A DNA stretch of 64,000 nt from Saprospiraceae bacterium (lineage in GTDB: Bacteria > Bacteroidota > Bacteroidia > Chitinophagales > Saprospiraceae): positions 189,228-253,227 of the forward strand of contig JAHDEC010000002.1 of the NCBI GenBank assembly GCA_020629035.1. Reading direction: 5' to 3'. The number at the start of each line of letters is the position of its first letter. Positions within the stretch are counted from its first letter, which is position 1. Under the pieces are notes generated by a model. The model had not been told where the DNA came from, made no database searches, and worked only from the letters and a program-made list of their open reading frames with translations. This document shows positions 8,307 through 58,646 of this stretch, piece by piece. The translations under genes and the position numbers were made by a program.

Positions 8307-8385
8307 ATGCTTATTTTTAAAATATTGGTAAATGATTGCAGCACTTTTAATTTGCTAAGCATTTACCTTATGTAAAATGGCAATT

Positions 8386-53585: not shown

Positions 53586-53617
53586 AAAAAAGGGATGCAG
53601 ATTGCATCCCTTTTTTT
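53586..53617. terminator. Bidirectional intrinsic terminator
   Basis: A 9-bp stem (AGGGATGCA / TGCATCCCT) with a three-base loop, flanked by A-run on one side and T-run on the other, so it works in both directions. It serves the T9SS gene on the left and the convergent coiled-coil gene on the right, whose stop codon begins within the T-run. Confidence 0.9.
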
Positions 53618-54569
53618 ATTCTGCATATAATAGTTCATCCTTATGGATGATTAAACTGTCATATTCAATTTGTAACTCTCCATATTTCTTTCCCAAGTAT
53701 TCCTTTATTTCTTGGATGTTATTTCTGATTATTTGCACCGATTTAAGCGAATTGACAATTTTCTGCTGAACTAGCCAATCAGAAATTATATTATCAAAAA
53801 ACACATTAGAAAAGCTTTTTAACTGATCTAAATTTATGGTTAATTGATTTCCATCAATTCCTACATCCAAAATTTCCTGTCTAAAAATGTTAATTCGGTG
53901 TTGTGCTGTTGGCACATGGCTTTTTGCGCGGTCTATTGCTTGATACTTTGCGTATTTTCCACTGCTTCCTCTATTTTGCATCATATCCCACTGACCCCAA
54001 TCTTGTGCCTTTTTTAAATGATGTATGATGTAGTTTAATTCGCTCAGGGACTTTTTTGCTGCATCTAGAGCTTGGGTGTATTCATTTCTATGGAGGATAT
54101 TATTCTCAAGTGATTTAACCACTCCATTCATTTGATTTTTCAATTTCGCTGAACCAAGATTCATTATTTCCACTTCACGTTTTTTCTTTAATTGATCAAG
54201 TTCTTTTTTTAAACTTGGCAATTCAAGTAATTTCTTCTCAAGAATGTCTTTTTCAAATTCCAGGAGTTCAGCAGCGCTACTGCTTTCATTATATTTAAGA
54301 CTTGCTTCTAAATATTCTTGACGTTTAATGTCAAGTTGCTTTTCTTTGTCGCCTAGAATATTACGAAACATTGAGGTTAATGTCCGATTCTCTAATTTGT
54401 CTATACCTTTTTCCCCTTCCTTGACAGAATCACCCAACATTGACAAAACCTCATAATGCTCTTTCAACGTTTCTTTAACTACTTTTAAATGTGAACTCAC
54501 ATGTTTTAAGTTATCAATGCCAAGTGTTACTTCTCTTAGCCTTTCTAATACCGGTGACAGTTTTTTCAT
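53616..54569 (-). CDS. Coiled-coil protein of unknown function
   Basis: A 317-residue cytoplasmic protein without signal or membrane segments. Long stretches are predicted coiled coil by heptad-like spacing (about residues 25-60, 75-190 and 245-300; for example LEFEKDILEKKLLELPSLKK and ELDQLKKKREVEIMNLGSAK). The ATG at 54569 is preferred over a GTG six bases upstream. It is divergent from the LEA-like gene, from which it is separated by about 70 bases. I do not recognise it. Such divergent pairs often share a regulator or stress signal, but there is no direct evidence. Confidence 0.75.
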   Translation of the reverse strand: MKKLSPVLERLREVTLGIDNLKHVSSHLKVVKETLKEHYEVLSMLGDSVKEGEKGIDKLENRTLTSMFRNILGDKEKQLDIKRQEYLEASLKYNESSSAAELLEFEKDILEKKLLELPSLKKELDQLKKKREVEIMNLGSAKLKNQMNGVVKSLENNILHRNEYTQALDAAKKSLSELNYIIHHLKKAQDWGQWDMMQNRGSSGKYAKYQAIDRAKSHVPTAQHRINIFRQEILDVGIDGNQLTINLDQLKSFSNVFFDNIISDWLVQQKIVNSLKSVQIIRNNIQEIKEYLGKKYGELQIEYDSLIIHKDELLYAE

Positions 54570-54575
54570 ATACAC

Positions 54576-54583
54576 TATTTTTG
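54576..54583 (+). promoter_or_regulatory. Candidate Bacteroidota -7 promoter element for the LEA-like gene
   Basis: TATTTTTG, an exact match to TAnnTTTG, 57 bases before the ATG at 54641 and only six bases beyond the start codon of the divergent coiled-coil gene. No clear -33 element was seen. Confidence 0.45.
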
Positions 54584-54640
54584 ACTATGCAAGTCCTTAA
54601 AAATATATCTATCTTAGAATAAAATTAAAATTATATATAA

Positions 54641-55498
54641 ATGGGGCTTTTAAGCGGATTAAAAAAATTATTTTTTGCAGGAGAATCAGTTGTTAAATCA
54701 GCATCAGAAAAGGCTGGAGATATGATTGTGGATCAAGGTGCAGAATTACTAACAAAAGGAAAAGATCTATCAGAATCAATTGGTAGCACCGTTATGGATA
54801 AAACATCCGGCTTGAAGGATGCTATTTTAGATGGATCAGGCAGTGTCTTAGAAAGTGGTAAAGGTATACTGGATAAGGGAATAGATTCTGTTACCAATAA
54901 CGAAACATTGAATAAAGGGCTTAATTCCATGGAAGACATTGGAAAGACTCTTATGGAAAAAGGTAGTGAAGGACTCGATAAACTTAGTAGCACTGCCGAA
55001 GATCTAGGTGGAATAATTAAAGAAAAAGGAGGTGAAACACTTGAGAAATTTGGAAATCTTTCGGAAAAGGTTGGCAGTGAAATCATTGACAAAGGAGGAG
55101 ACTTAAGTGAAAAAGTGGGTTCAACTGTTTTAGATGCCAAAGAGAAAATGGTTGAAAAAGCAAAGGAAGTAGGCGGTCAAATGAAAGAAAAGTTTGATCA
55201 AACTATGGAAAAAGCCGAAGCTATGGCTGCAGAAGAAAAACTAAACCCTAAAAAGGAATTTGCAGATGACACTTTAGATGCTTCAGGAAGTCTGTTAGAG
55301 GGAACTGATGACTTCTTCAGCAAGGCTTCTAAATTCGCCGATGGAGATTACGACGCAATGTCTGAAGGTAAAATAGTAGTAGATGAAACAATCAAAGAAT
55401 TACCGAAGCAGGACGTTAGTCCAGCCGCTGGATTTTTGGATCATGATGGTGATGGTAATGAACTGATCGATGATGCAATAATCAGCGAAGAAGAATAA
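54641..55498 (+). CDS. LEA-like amphipathic repeat protein
   Basis: A 285-residue protein made largely of degenerate K/E/G/S-rich amphipathic repeats over residues 20-200, such as DLSESIGSTVMDKTSGLKDA, DLSEKVGSTVLDAKEKMVEK and LEKFGNLSEKVGSEIIDKGG. This is the style of group 3 LEA or apolipoprotein-like proteins, which protect cells from drying or bind membranes. The N-terminus (MGLLSGLKKLFFAGESVVKS) is basic and amphipathic, not a signal peptide. The acidic tail has LDHDGDGNELIDDA, an EF-hand-like calcium loop. It is 64-79 bases upstream of the second sigma gene on the same strand, so it might share the transcript. The function is unknown. Confidence 0.7.
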   Translation: MGLLSGLKKLFFAGESVVKSASEKAGDMIVDQGAELLTKGKDLSESIGSTVMDKTSGLKDAILDGSGSVLESGKGILDKGIDSVTNNETLNKGLNSMEDIGKTLMEKGSEGLDKLSSTAEDLGGIIKEKGGETLEKFGNLSEKVGSEIIDKGGDLSEKVGSTVLDAKEKMVEKAKEVGGQMKEKFDQTMEKAEAMAAEEKLNPKKEFADDTLDASGSLLEGTDDFFSKASKFADGDYDAMSEGKIVVDETIKELPKQDVSPAAGFLDHDGDGNELIDDAIISEEE

Positions 55499-55577
55499 TC
55501 AAATATCAGGCAGCTTTTTTGGAACTTCCTGTATCTATATAACTGAAAACAAATTTAATCCTGTGTCTCCTTTGCAT

Positions 55578-56123
55578 ATGCATGGTCTATCAGAAAAAGA
55601 GCTAATAAAGCAATGTCTTGCAAAAGATCATTTTGCTCAGAAACAGCTATTTGATAGATTCTCTATGAAAATGCTTAGTGTCTGTAAGAGATACACGGGT
55701 AAAATGATTGAAGCTGAAGACTTACTCCAAGAAGGCTTCATTAGAGTTTTTAAAAATTTGCATCAATTCAAGTTCCAAGGTTCTTTAGAAGGATGGATTA
55801 GGCGTATTATTGTACACTCATGTATTAAGTACGTAACCAAGAAAATTAATCGTCAAGAATTAGTCGAGTTTACTCAAGAAAATGAGCAAGTGGAAAAGGC
55901 CTTAGCTTTTTCAAATTTATCTGCTGAGGATTTATTAAAACTAATTCAAGCTCTTCCAATTGGTTATCGAACAGTCTTCAATATGTATGCAATTGAGGGA
56001 TATAGCCATACTGAAATTGCTGACCTCCTTGGAATCAAAGCAAGTACCTCTAGATCACAACTTGTAAAAGCAAGAAAAATGTTACAGAATAATTTAGCTA
56101 AACTTCAAAAGCTCGTAGGATGA
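55578..56123 (+). CDS. ECF RNA polymerase sigma factor (module 2)
   Basis: A 181-residue ECF sigma factor. Region 2 lies at about residues 20-90 (FDRFSMKMLSVCKRYTGKMI, EAEDLLQEGFIRVFKNLHQF, LEGWIRRIIVHSC). Region 4 is at about 125-175 (LPIGYRTVFNMYAIEGYSHT, EIADLLGIKASTSRSQLVKA). I use the ATG at 55578; a GTG at 55563 is an alternative. Its stop overlaps the start of the anti-sigma-barrel gene by four bases (ATGA), a sign of translational coupling that keeps the pair in balance. Confidence 0.92.
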   Translation: MHGLSEKELIKQCLAKDHFAQKQLFDRFSMKMLSVCKRYTGKMIEAEDLLQEGFIRVFKNLHQFKFQGSLEGWIRRIIVHSCIKYVTKKINRQELVEFTQENEQVEKALAFSNLSAEDLLKLIQALPIGYRTVFNMYAIEGYSHTEIADLLGIKASTSRSQLVKARKMLQNNLAKLQKLVG

Positions 56124-57580
56124 ATATAGATGATATTTTCAAGCAGTCACTTGAACATCACGAGAGTGAAGTGAATCCTAATATTTGGGAAAATATAAGC
56201 GGAGAAATCAATCAAGTTGACAAAACTCCTATATGGAGCTTTGGTTTTACTAGCAAGTTATTAACCAGTCTCATAGTTTTAGGTTCAATTTCTCTCATTG
56301 GATATTTATTATTGAATAATAATCATGAATCAACAACAGAACAACAGTCATCCAGCGAAGAATCAATAATAATAGCTCAAAACAATGAAAAATCTCACAG
56401 CTCAGCTGCAGTTAACCATGAAATCAAAGACAGTCAGGCGTTAAACGCAATAGACCGAGAGACGGCACCTGAAAAGTATATAAAAAGTAACTTAAAGACT
56501 TCAGAACAAGTCTTAGACTCAGCACTGTCTGCTAATTCAACTAAGATTAAAAAATCTGTAAAGAAATCAAGTCAATCAAGTTTTACAACTCAAAGTCCTA
56601 ATAAGCAACAGACAAATACAAAATCAATTTCGAAAAGTATAACACCGCTGACAAGCGATGAAAAAGATGAGTCATTAAACCTTTTTGGAAACCTAATATT
56701 AAACAAAGAACATAAAAACTCATATGTATCAATTGGTACTAGAAATCATTTGAGGAATGAAGTTGATCTTCCAACTAATGCAATTAGCCCCCTTAAAATT
56801 GAACCTTTTGAAATAAAAAGAAAAGCTCAAGAATGTCCTAGTTTTTATAAAAATGTTTGGGTACCATATATGTGGGCAGAATACGGAAGCATCTTTCCTC
56901 AACGAACTCTTTCAAGTGAGGAAAGTTATTCAGACTACCTAGATTTACGCAATCAATATGAAATGCCTGAATATTCATTTGATTTTGGCGCAGGTTTCGG
57001 ACTTATGACACCATATGGTGTCTATGGTGAAATTGGTTTACAATATTCGCAAATACAAGAAAAGTTTTCGTTTACCGATCCTGAAACTGTAAAAAAGACG
57101 CAAATTATTACCCTAGACACGCTATTTATGAATGGTCAGATTATCACTAATTCTGATACATCATATATTGATATTCCAGGTGCAGTTACCATTGTTACTC
57201 ATAATAAATATAAGTTTTTCAATTTCCCAATCATGCTCGGTTATGATCATGCCCTCAATACCAATTTTAGTCTTGGAGTTAAAGCTGGAGCTATCCTTAA
57301 TTTTAGTTTTAGGCAAAAAGGTAGATTTGTAGACGAAGACAATAATCCTGTTTGGTTTTCATCAAACACTCCAGGACGTGCATTAGCATTTCCAGATAAA
57401 ATAGGAATGAGTTTTATGACCGGACTTCAGGCAACTTATCATTTTGGTGATCTAATCAGCTTATATTTTTCACCACAGATTAAATTTATACCAAAATCTA
57501 TAACATTGGATGATTATGTCATCCGACAAACGTATTTAAATCCATCACTAACTATCGGAGTTAAATACTCGATCCTATAA
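56120..57580 (+). CDS. Predicted dual-membrane-spanning anti-sigma factor with C-terminal outer-membrane beta-barrel (module 2)
   Basis: A 486-residue protein with the same plan as the one at 10652. The cytoplasmic segment of about 44 residues carries VNPNIWENISGEI, matching the LWDSIESRV of module 1. One transmembrane helix (about 45-65, LLTSLIVLGSISLIGYLLL) follows. A low-complexity S/N/K/E-rich linker runs to about residue 215. A beta-barrel fills the remainder (YSFDFGAGFGLMTPYGVYGE, FNFPIMLGYDHALNTNFSLG, FMTGLQATYHFGDLISLYFS, LTIGVKYSIL). It has no cleavable signal peptide. Its place four bases inside an ECF sigma gene argues for anti-sigma function. Ligand and trigger are unknown. Confidence 0.8.
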   Translation: MNIDDIFKQSLEHHESEVNPNIWENISGEINQVDKTPIWSFGFTSKLLTSLIVLGSISLIGYLLLNNNHESTTEQQSSSEESIIIAQNNEKSHSSAAVNHEIKDSQALNAIDRETAPEKYIKSNLKTSEQVLDSALSANSTKIKKSVKKSSQSSFTTQSPNKQQTNTKSISKSITPLTSDEKDESLNLFGNLILNKEHKNSYVSIGTRNHLRNEVDLPTNAISPLKIEPFEIKRKAQECPSFYKNVWVPYMWAEYGSIFPQRTLSSEESYSDYLDLRNQYEMPEYSFDFGAGFGLMTPYGVYGEIGLQYSQIQEKFSFTDPETVKKTQIITLDTLFMNGQIITNSDTSYIDIPGAVTIVTHNKYKFFNFPIMLGYDHALNTNFSLGVKAGAILNFSFRQKGRFVDEDNNPVWFSSNTPGRALAFPDKIGMSFMTGLQATYHFGDLISLYFSPQIKFIPKSITLDDYVIRQTYLNPSLTIGVKYSIL

Positions 57581-57605
57581 AACCCATATCCAAATTAAGT
57601 GACCA

Positions 57606-58583
57606 ATGACGAATAAATTAAATATAATAATTACGCTTTTTTTGCTCATTTTGATATCAGCTTGTAGTAAAGATTCAGAGAATTTTGAGCCTAATATAAA
57701 TCAGGAGAGTTTGACTAAGCTGTTTGATGAAATTCAAGATTTTCAAGAATCAACAACATTCGATGCAACTCAACCTTTTGATATTGTTACAGAAAATAGA
57801 ACTATAATTTCCATTCCTGGAGGTATCTTGATTGATGGGTCAGGAACAGAAGTTTCAGGAATTGTCGAGGTTGAGTATATTGAAATTTTAGATAAGTCCT
57901 TAATGGCGGTTTACCATCTTGAAACAGAATCAGAAGATAAGTTATTAGAATCTAACTTCAATTATCACCTAAAATTTACTCAGAACGGAAATGATTTAGT
58001 TCTAGAACCTAATGCTAAGGTAATATTCAGAGTTCCCTTCGATGATGTTCCAGCAGATCATTACCGTTTTTATGGAAATAACACAAATGAAGTACTTAGT
58101 TGGGATTTAGATGGAAATTATAACGGCGGCAATATCGATGCTGATTTGATTAATTATACAGATTGGGTTTATGAGGATATAAGCGGACAAAATTGGAGTG
58201 ATTTTGGCTATCAATTTACAGTAGATAGATTGGGTTGGATCAGTATTTCTAGCTATTACGGAAATGATGCATTAGAAAATACCAATATATGTGTTGAAAT
58301 TCCAGATGAAATAGGTAGTGCTAATACAAAAGCCTTTATAATCTACAAAAATTTAAATTCGGTTCAAGAGTTAAAATTTAATTCTGATAATTCGCTATTT
58401 TGCGAAAATTTAGGACTAACACCACTTAATGAAGAGGTTACCATAATAAGCATAAGTGCCTTAGCTGATGAGAATTATTACCTTGGTATGAAAGAGGTCA
58501 TTGCAGGAGAGCAAGAAAGCTTTAACATTATTCTACAAAAAAGAAGCAAAGAAGAAATATTAGACATTCTAGGAATGTTATAA
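57606..58583 (+). CDS. Lipoprotein of sigma/anti-sigma-barrel module 2
   Basis: A 325-residue predicted lipoprotein (MTNKLNIIITLFLLILISAC). The mature part contains ISIPGGILIDGSGTEVSGIV followed by EVEYIEILDKSLMAVYHLET, a beta-rich pattern I have seen in many Bacteroidota surface lipoproteins. FKFTQ-type strands then lead to NGNDLVLEPNAKVIFRVPFD and RFYGNNTNEVLSWDLDG, comparable in layout to the module 1 lipoprotein. It begins 25 bases after the barrel gene and ends at a terminator, so the three genes form one unit. A role as ligand or plug of the barrel is inference. Confidence 0.72.
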   Translation: MTNKLNIIITLFLLILISACSKDSENFEPNINQESLTKLFDEIQDFQESTTFDATQPFDIVTENRTIISIPGGILIDGSGTEVSGIVEVEYIEILDKSLMAVYHLETESEDKLLESNFNYHLKFTQNGNDLVLEPNAKVIFRVPFDDVPADHYRFYGNNTNEVLSWDLDGNYNGGNIDADLINYTDWVYEDISGQNWSDFGYQFTVDRLGWISISSYYGNDALENTNICVEIPDEIGSANTKAFIIYKNLNSVQELKFNSDNSLFCENLGLTPLNEEVTIISISALADENYYLGMKEVIAGEQESFNIILQKRSKEEILDILGML

Positions 58584-58612: not shown

Positions 58613-58646
58613 GCCTGTCTAGATTTGTCTGGGCAGGCTTTTTTTA
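58613..58646 (+). terminator. Intrinsic terminator after module 2
   Basis: A stem of five perfect pairs extended by wobble pairs (GCCTGTCT / GGGCAGGC), a ten-base loop and eight T. The T-tract touches the stop codon of the convergent thioesterase gene. Confidence 0.8.

Follow-up and report, generated by a model that had tools for sequence, protein, structure and literature searches.

A sigma factor, barrel protein and lipoprotein operon in Saprospiraceae: a probable trans-envelope signalling system with readable promoters

The module 2 operon and its barrel protein

A stretch of 64,000 nucleotides from a Saprospiraceae bacterium (assembly GCA_020629035.1, contig JAHDEC010000002.1, positions 189,228 to 253,227 of the forward strand), here termed the window, contains two clusters in which genes for an extracytoplasmic function (ECF) sigma factor, a barrel-type protein resembling an anti-sigma factor and a lipoprotein are neighbours. 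These are termed modules 1 and 2, and their lipoproteins lip1 and lip2 (Table 1). A first-pass annotation of the window described module 2, the main subject here, as an ECF sigma factor, a protein with a W-x-x-I core, one helix, a linker and a barrel, and a lipoprotein; the three-gene set is present as described. The span given, 55578-58583, holds these genes, and it is the sigma gene start that needs revision: judged by conservation, GTG at 55563 is the most likely start rather than 55578, since the start region (MSPL/MAPL...) is kept in genomes G001 and G002 and in the more distant loci L177/L178. G000 denotes the source genome, referred to as the own genome, other G numbers are genomes of relatives, L numbers are loci and C numbers are contigs.

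The module 2 sigma factor is matched by the Pfam models Sigma70_r2 (E 8e-15) and r4_2 (E 3e-15), and by TIGR02937 with 91 bits, over the model cut-off. TIGR02985 and NF058625 also match, both under their cut-offs, and the ECF21 model is absent from the libraries used. The sigma gene overlaps the barrel gene by 4 bp, an adjacency that is kept in orthologs, and 25 bp separate the barrel gene from the lipoprotein gene. The closest named records for the trio are Saprospiraceae metagenome-assembled genomes.

AlphaFold2 modelling of the barrel protein predicts helices at residues 3-12 and 20-30, the latter with the W-x-x-I core (W23-E-N-I26), a helix at 45-66 that is the predicted membrane span, an unstructured stretch from 66 to 244, and strands within 248-484. 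Foldseek against the PDB places the OmpA transmembrane domain first (probability 1.00; TM-score 0.72, taken on the OmpA side). Pfam outer-membrane barrel models match 10 and 6 of the 21 aligned barrel-type proteins of the own genome at E <= 0.01. Among orthologs, both the N-terminus and the barrel are conserved and the tether between them is variable. The model suggests that this is probably a dual-membrane anti-sigma protein similar to Dma and Reo.

Table 1. Features of modules 1 and 2 in the window, segments of their products, and domain-swap proteins of related loci
Feature	Position	Strand	Basis or detail
Module 2: ECF-type promoter (predicted autoregulation site)	55508..55539	+	AGGCAGC - 16 nt - GTATCT
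Module 2: ECF sigma factor gene, 186 amino acids (aa)	55563..56123	+	Pfam PF04542, PF08281; TIGR02937
Module 2: anti-sigma-like barrel protein gene, 486 aa	56120..57580	+	AlphaFold2, Foldseek, weak Pfam OMP_b-brl
Barrel protein: W-x-x-I domain, predicted cytoplasmic	aa 1-44		
Barrel protein: predicted transmembrane (TM) helix	aa 45-66		
Barrel protein: disordered Ser/Asn/Lys-rich tether	aa 67-247		
Barrel protein: OmpA-like beta-barrel	aa 248-486		
Module 2: lipoprotein gene (lip2), 325 aa	57606..58583	+	Lipobox Cys20, profile and model evidence
lip2: FAM171/ZU5-like domain	about aa 46-158		Model mean pLDDT 66.5
lip2: second beta domain	about aa 184-313		Same model
Module 2: intrinsic-terminator-like element closing the operon	58613..58645	+	Hairpin 58613-58638, 11-bp stem, then TTTTTTT
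Module 1: GCAGC core of likely promoter, upstream of lipoprotein gene	8338..8342	+	TTGCAGC, also in G001, G002
Module 1: lipoprotein (lip1), 556 aa	8377..10047	+	hhalign to lip2
Module 1: ECF sigma factor, 192 aa	10068..10646	+	Pfam, similarity to module 2 sigma factor
Module 1: anti-sigma/TM/barrel protein, 471 aa	10652..12067	+	Pfam, similarity to module 2 barrel protein, one-TM layout
Module 1: large secreted protein (fourth gene), 1722 aa	12197..17365	+	Type IX secretion system (T9SS)-type C-terminal end
Domain-swap protein, L112	6399-7961	-	
Domain-swap protein, L227	3561-5351	+	
Domain-swap protein, L228	2890-4617	-	

The lipoprotein family and the spread of the modules

Lip1 and lip2 cannot be aligned by BLASTP (E 1.3). 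A profile of 17 lip2-type proteins nevertheless matches a profile of 15 lip1-type proteins in hhalign over 206 columns (98.6%, E 9.5e-16); in a control, a lipoprotein profile against a barrel-protein profile gives 0.5%. The match between a narrow lip1 profile, made from the five closest lip1 orthologs, and lip2 is weak (31%, E 5e-4), and the kinship of lip1 and lip2 thus depends on intermediates. Two such proteins fit both profiles in one region: L073 gene 3 (lip2 hidden Markov model [HMM] 111-254, lip1 HMM 3-454) and L081 gene 6 (lip2 HMM 126-289, lip1 HMM 1-441), both of them own-genome lipoproteins encoded upstream of a sigma/barrel pair. Iterated searches begun from lip1 or from lip2 converge on nearly one set. 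Chance resemblance is ruled out by the profile comparison and the dual-matching intermediates. In the aligned conserved core, FYGNNTNEVLSW, with an invariant W166, is matched with FYLDQSSGQW, with an invariant W235. By profile comparison, lip1 and lip2 are remote homologues in one FAM171-like family, previously unnamed, and distinct from NigD, as none of the 17 lip2-type and 15 lip1-type members matches the NigD domain.

PF10577, the FAM171 N-terminal model, matches six of the 15 lip1-type proteins (best 7e-7), CarboxypepD_reg models also match lip1 relatives, and these relatives weakly match the solved FAM171A1/A2 structures (9y63, 9y6n; E 0.01-0.02). The 17 lip2-type members have zero Pfam matches, PF10577 included, and the top PDB fold match of the lip2 model is a weak one, to the ZU5-UPA region of UNC5b (3g5b; E 0.006, probability 0.92). 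The kinship with FAM171/ZU5 is distant and, for lip2 alone, not significant. The FAM171/ZU5-UPA proteins of animals differ in not being lipoproteins.

A surface lipoprotein signal of Bacteroidota, C-X-K-(D/E)2, has been described (PMC5080379), and the pattern in this family is close to it: K/R at +3 together with D/E at +4 past the lipid cysteine is seen in 20 of 26 members, vs 10 of 37 other lipoproteins. In lip2 the lipobox Cys20 is followed by SKDSE, which resembles the export signal, although lip2 has K-D-S-E in the relevant positions. Searching a narrower lipoprotein alignment against genome contigs gave four loci, all in Saprospiraceae.

The family domain also occurs outside lipoproteins. 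Directly behind the sigma gene of a divergent ECF sigma lineage lies a gene for a one-TM protein that has, in place of the barrel, a lipoprotein-family domain with a WNCD motif as its outer part. Such domain-swap proteins are found in G047, G018 and G017 (family-domain match E 2e-15, 7e-15 and 1e-11), and at L112 a lipoprotein of the same family comes after the domain-swap protein.

The order sigma factor, barrel protein, lipoprotein is kept in 11 further genomes (G001, G002, G004, G006, G009, G014, G019, G027, G032, G034 and G036), and module 2 therefore has this order in 12 genomes, of different genera. In three genomes of the lineage, G003, G016 and G022, the lipoprotein gene is not beside the sigma/barrel pair. 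In a further five, G020, G025, G030, G031 and G033, all 99-100% complete, the pair is present and a full-length lip2 ortholog was not found by profile search. The module 1 order of lipoprotein, sigma factor, barrel protein and large secreted protein is found in seven genomes, although the gap in G014 contains no called sigma gene. In each of the seven orthologous loci the barrel gene is followed by a large secreted protein (at least 763 aa), and because this gene keeps the same place, module 1 looks like a four-gene unit.

The first-pass annotation took module 2 to be a rearranged copy of module 1 and proposed aligning the two lipoproteins and the two barrels. It was right that the lipoproteins are akin and share FY...W, which falls in the conserved core, and its caveat that they might prove unrelated does not apply. 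The two barrel proteins are likewise related (E 8e-5), and the sigma factors have about 35-36% identity. The shuffling of gene order that it proposed is not borne out. The nearest own-genome relative of the module 2 sigma factor is that of C59 (43% vs 36%), and the sigma tree places modules 1 and 2 in separate groups, so that a recent duplication was rejected. Gene orders cluster strongly on the same tree (15 changes vs 34 in shuffles). Since each order is kept across orthologs and the tree separates the modules, module 2 is not a rearranged duplicate; as read from gene order and phylogeny, the two are separate old lineages, each with its own fixed gene order.

A family with many members in this genome was also proposed, and this holds. 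Searching the own genome with the module 2 sigma factor gives 37 matches, and in 23 of these the next gene encodes a one-TM protein (helix near residue 40-65) with a long barrel-type C-terminal part. It should be pointed out that the own-genome counts are drawn from searches and retrieved stretches, and that the 23 pairs were read off a listing of the genes after each sigma match; one pair is cut at a contig end and another is split by a frame break. The FAM171-like family partners 10 of the 23 pairs, and the remaining 13 have another lipoprotein, another secreted protein or none. These 13, together with the five genomes that keep the pair without the lipoprotein, speak against the further idea that the lipoprotein is a constant partner, for which pairs without a lipoprotein in other genomes had been named as the critical observation. 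From its distribution and promoters, the lipoprotein is a frequent, probably sigma-controlled partner and not an obligatory one.

Association with sigma genes is nonetheless strong. Across 37 genomes, 52 family members were collected by homology alone (E <= 1e-30), and 44 of them have an ECF sigma gene no further than 3.5 kb away; the chance expectation is about 3% within 1.5 kb. In the 77 modules examined for gene order, the lipoprotein comes first in 38 and last in 15. The own genome has 12 family members (11 found with the lip1-type profile, and lip2), 11 of which are in sigma/barrel clusters.

The twelfth member, at L210:3170-4594 (G000:C36:107226-108566), has no sigma gene nearby and follows a 614-aa multi-TM protein; the same is true in G001 (L192). 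Two own-genome genes are broken by an in-frame TAA, a family lipoprotein gene at L065:3040-5070 (G000:C26:82539-83621) and a sigma gene at L073:5179-5580 (G000:C48:5011-5526), which may represent decay or assembly error. Tandem family lipoprotein genes stand upstream of one sigma/barrel pair at L070 (G000:C23:29776-34568) and at L200 (G018:C63:75459-79696). In G025, L162:1093-6766 holds a sigma/barrel/lipoprotein set and, after it, another barrel protein (464 aa, E 2e-16 to that of module 2) that has no sigma gene of its own.

Promoters of the modules

Counts of k-mers upstream of the first genes of modules show enrichment of GCAGC and GCAACG. Of 75 modules, 36 have GCARCG no more than 140 bp from their first gene, vs 12 of 301 other genes (p 2e-19, a value that counts related modules as if they were independent). 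The control, its reverse complement, occurs in one of 75. In the module 2 lineage the promoter takes the form AGGCARC - 16 nt - GTATCT. A matrix whose training set excluded the own genus ranks the site at 55508 first in the 64 kb on both strands (19.9 bits, the next being 11.5). It is kept in G001 and upstream of the orthologous sigma genes, with the 16-nt spacing unchanged.

An independent test is provided by the genomes in which the lipoprotein gene has moved. In all three it is preceded by the module 2 promoter, with scores of 25.0 at -139 in G022, where the gene is on a different contig from the sigma/barrel pair, 17.2 at -46 in G016 and 16.6 at -128 in G003. Scores equally high occur in 0, 1 and 1 of 357 unrelated regions, respectively, and the relocated genes had been left out of matrix training. 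In G032 there is an additional promoter between the barrel and lipoprotein genes (26.7 at -79). As the promoter stays before the lipoprotein gene when that gene is relocated, the lipoprotein appears to be an output of the sigma factor.

The module 2 promoter is itself an exact match to the pattern in the own genome, at G000:C51:244736-244763. A wider own-genome regulon of the module 2 sigma factor was considered and rejected; the sole other exact match, C58:404, precedes no gene that it could serve, and matches with one mismatch (30 vs 16 in a backward control) are mostly noise. Over 37 whole genomes, exact matches are near background overall, the meaningful ones being those at sigma and lipoprotein genes. 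Consensus sigma-70 promoters are not above the level in shuffled sequence.

Other lineages keep GCARCG and have a conserved downstream element of their own, e.g. GCAACGTTTT with GGTAA.TA in the C39 module, in three species. A shared -35 core with a lineage-specific -10 element suggests parallel, insulated, autoregulated channels. With such a promoter code, the regulon of each channel could be predicted from sequence.

A trans-envelope signalling reading and its alternatives

Module 2 can quite probably be looked at as an autoregulated trans-envelope signalling operon of the EcfO-Reo or Das-Dma type. The cytoplasmic N-terminal domain of the anti-sigma protein would hold the sigma factor, and the protein would cross the inner membrane once, span the periplasm with its disordered tether, and reach the outer membrane with its OmpA-like barrel. 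The sigma factor might then be released by a ligand of the barrel or by a disturbance there, and would transcribe its own operon from AGGCARC-N16-GTATCT to give more sigma factor, more of its brake and more lipoprotein, the last being the output, destined for the cell surface. About 23 such channels may exist in the genome, and the differing -10 parts would insulate these from each other.

This kind of system is already known. Dma has an N-terminal anti-sigma domain, a TM helix, a long disordered tether and a C-terminal barrel, and Bacteroides thetaiotaomicron carries Dma1-3 (PMC13088901, which cites PNAS 121:e2321910121 of 2024). Reo of the EcfO-Reo pair, from Bacteroides fragilis and Phocaeicola vulgatus, is an anti-sigma protein that spans from cytoplasm to surface (PMC9308784). 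In both systems the operon is induced when the anti-sigma protein is lost, and in the EcfO case so are NigD surface lipoproteins (PMC9308784, PMC13114119); the NigD surface lipoprotein is produced only when the anti-sigma protein is removed or under stress (PMC13114119). Module 2 shares with Das-Dma the adjacent ECF sigma gene, the four-part layout of the anti-sigma protein and the predicted autoregulation. The Das-Dma operon likewise has a further gene, there of unassigned function, bt_1557, with a log2 change of 6.00 in the dma2 mutant. With EcfO-Reo module 2 shares the pairing of a sigma factor with an anti-sigma protein of cytoplasm-to-surface layout, and surface lipoproteins belong to the EcfO-Reo regulon (PMC9308784, PMC13114119); the lipoprotein M0N98_03762 is numbered beside the pair M0N98_03761-03760. 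EcfO-Reo responds to oxidative stress, toxins or stress at the outer membrane.

What is new here is the other lipoprotein family, the strong expansion and the readable promoters. The partner is FAM171-like, and is neither NigD, the lipoprotein type of EcfO-Reo, nor DUF4943; 23 sigma/barrel pairs stand against Dma1-3 in B. thetaiotaomicron, and a promoter sequence is described. Dual-membrane anti-sigma factors have been described only recently, from a few gut Bacteroides that carry a handful each, and neither their signals nor the tasks of the resulting lipoproteins are settled there. Saprospiraceae would add a lineage outside Bacteroidales, with about 23 such systems in the own genome and a lipoprotein family most of whose members are tied to such systems.

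Several points weigh against reading module 2 in this way. Confidence in the barrel model is low on average, with a predicted local distance difference test (pLDDT) score of 51.9 overall, and 70-88 in most strands. The likeness to Dma1 and Reo is judged from layout. The sites used to train the promoter matrix had first been chosen by eye after the k-mer enrichment, so that the independent promoter tests are the lipoprotein sites and the held-out own genus alone. Against a pure output role of the lipoprotein, the family domain takes the barrel's place in the presumed anti-sigma protein of the divergent lineage, and the domain can therefore be the outer part of such a protein. These replacements are natural domain swaps that may help to locate the sensing part.

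The same swaps favour another possibility, namely that the lipoprotein itself takes part in sensing. Placed at the surface, on the barrel or close to it, it would gate the anti-sigma protein through its binding state, either as a receptor cap or by feeding back negatively once induced. Capping of outer-membrane barrels by surface lipoproteins, such as SusD and BtuG, is a known theme in Bacteroidota, and the strong co-occurrence of the family with sigma genes fits as well. The absence of the lipoprotein in five genomes that keep sigma factor and barrel argues for an output rather than an essential sensor part, and its relocation in three genomes and the 13 own pairs with another partner or none point the same way. 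We consider a sensor role to have perhaps a modest chance of being correct. More speculative, and rather unlikely as a whole, is a scheme of two dozen insulated surface-to-gene channels in Saprospiraceae, with each barrel matched to its own FAM171/ZU5-like lipoprotein, a product of the sigma factor that would also act as the barrel's gate or ligand reader, and each channel sensing and rebuilding its own surface receptor.

Cell-surface signalling of the FecI-FecR type, via a TonB-dependent receptor, would also place an ECF sigma factor and a one-TM anti-sigma protein beside outer-membrane genes, and such systems abound in this phylum. However, Pfam finds no FecR domain in the module 2 anti-sigma protein or the aligned barrel-type proteins, no TonB receptor was noticed among the module 2 neighbours, and the barrel is fused to the anti-sigma protein; this explanation is most improbable. 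A chance neighbourhood of the lipoprotein gene and the pair it follows, to which the presence of the pair without lipoprotein in several genomes might point, has hardly any likelihood, since the order is kept in 12 genomes of different genera, adjacency of family and sigma genes is far above the chance level, and the sigma promoter before relocated lipoprotein genes excludes it in practice.

As to the surroundings of module 2, the region upstream (53616-55498) encodes a coiled-coil-like protein on the minus strand and a 285-aa apolipoprotein-like protein with amphipathic repeats on the plus strand. Both genes also precede module 2 in the same-genus genomes G001 and G002.

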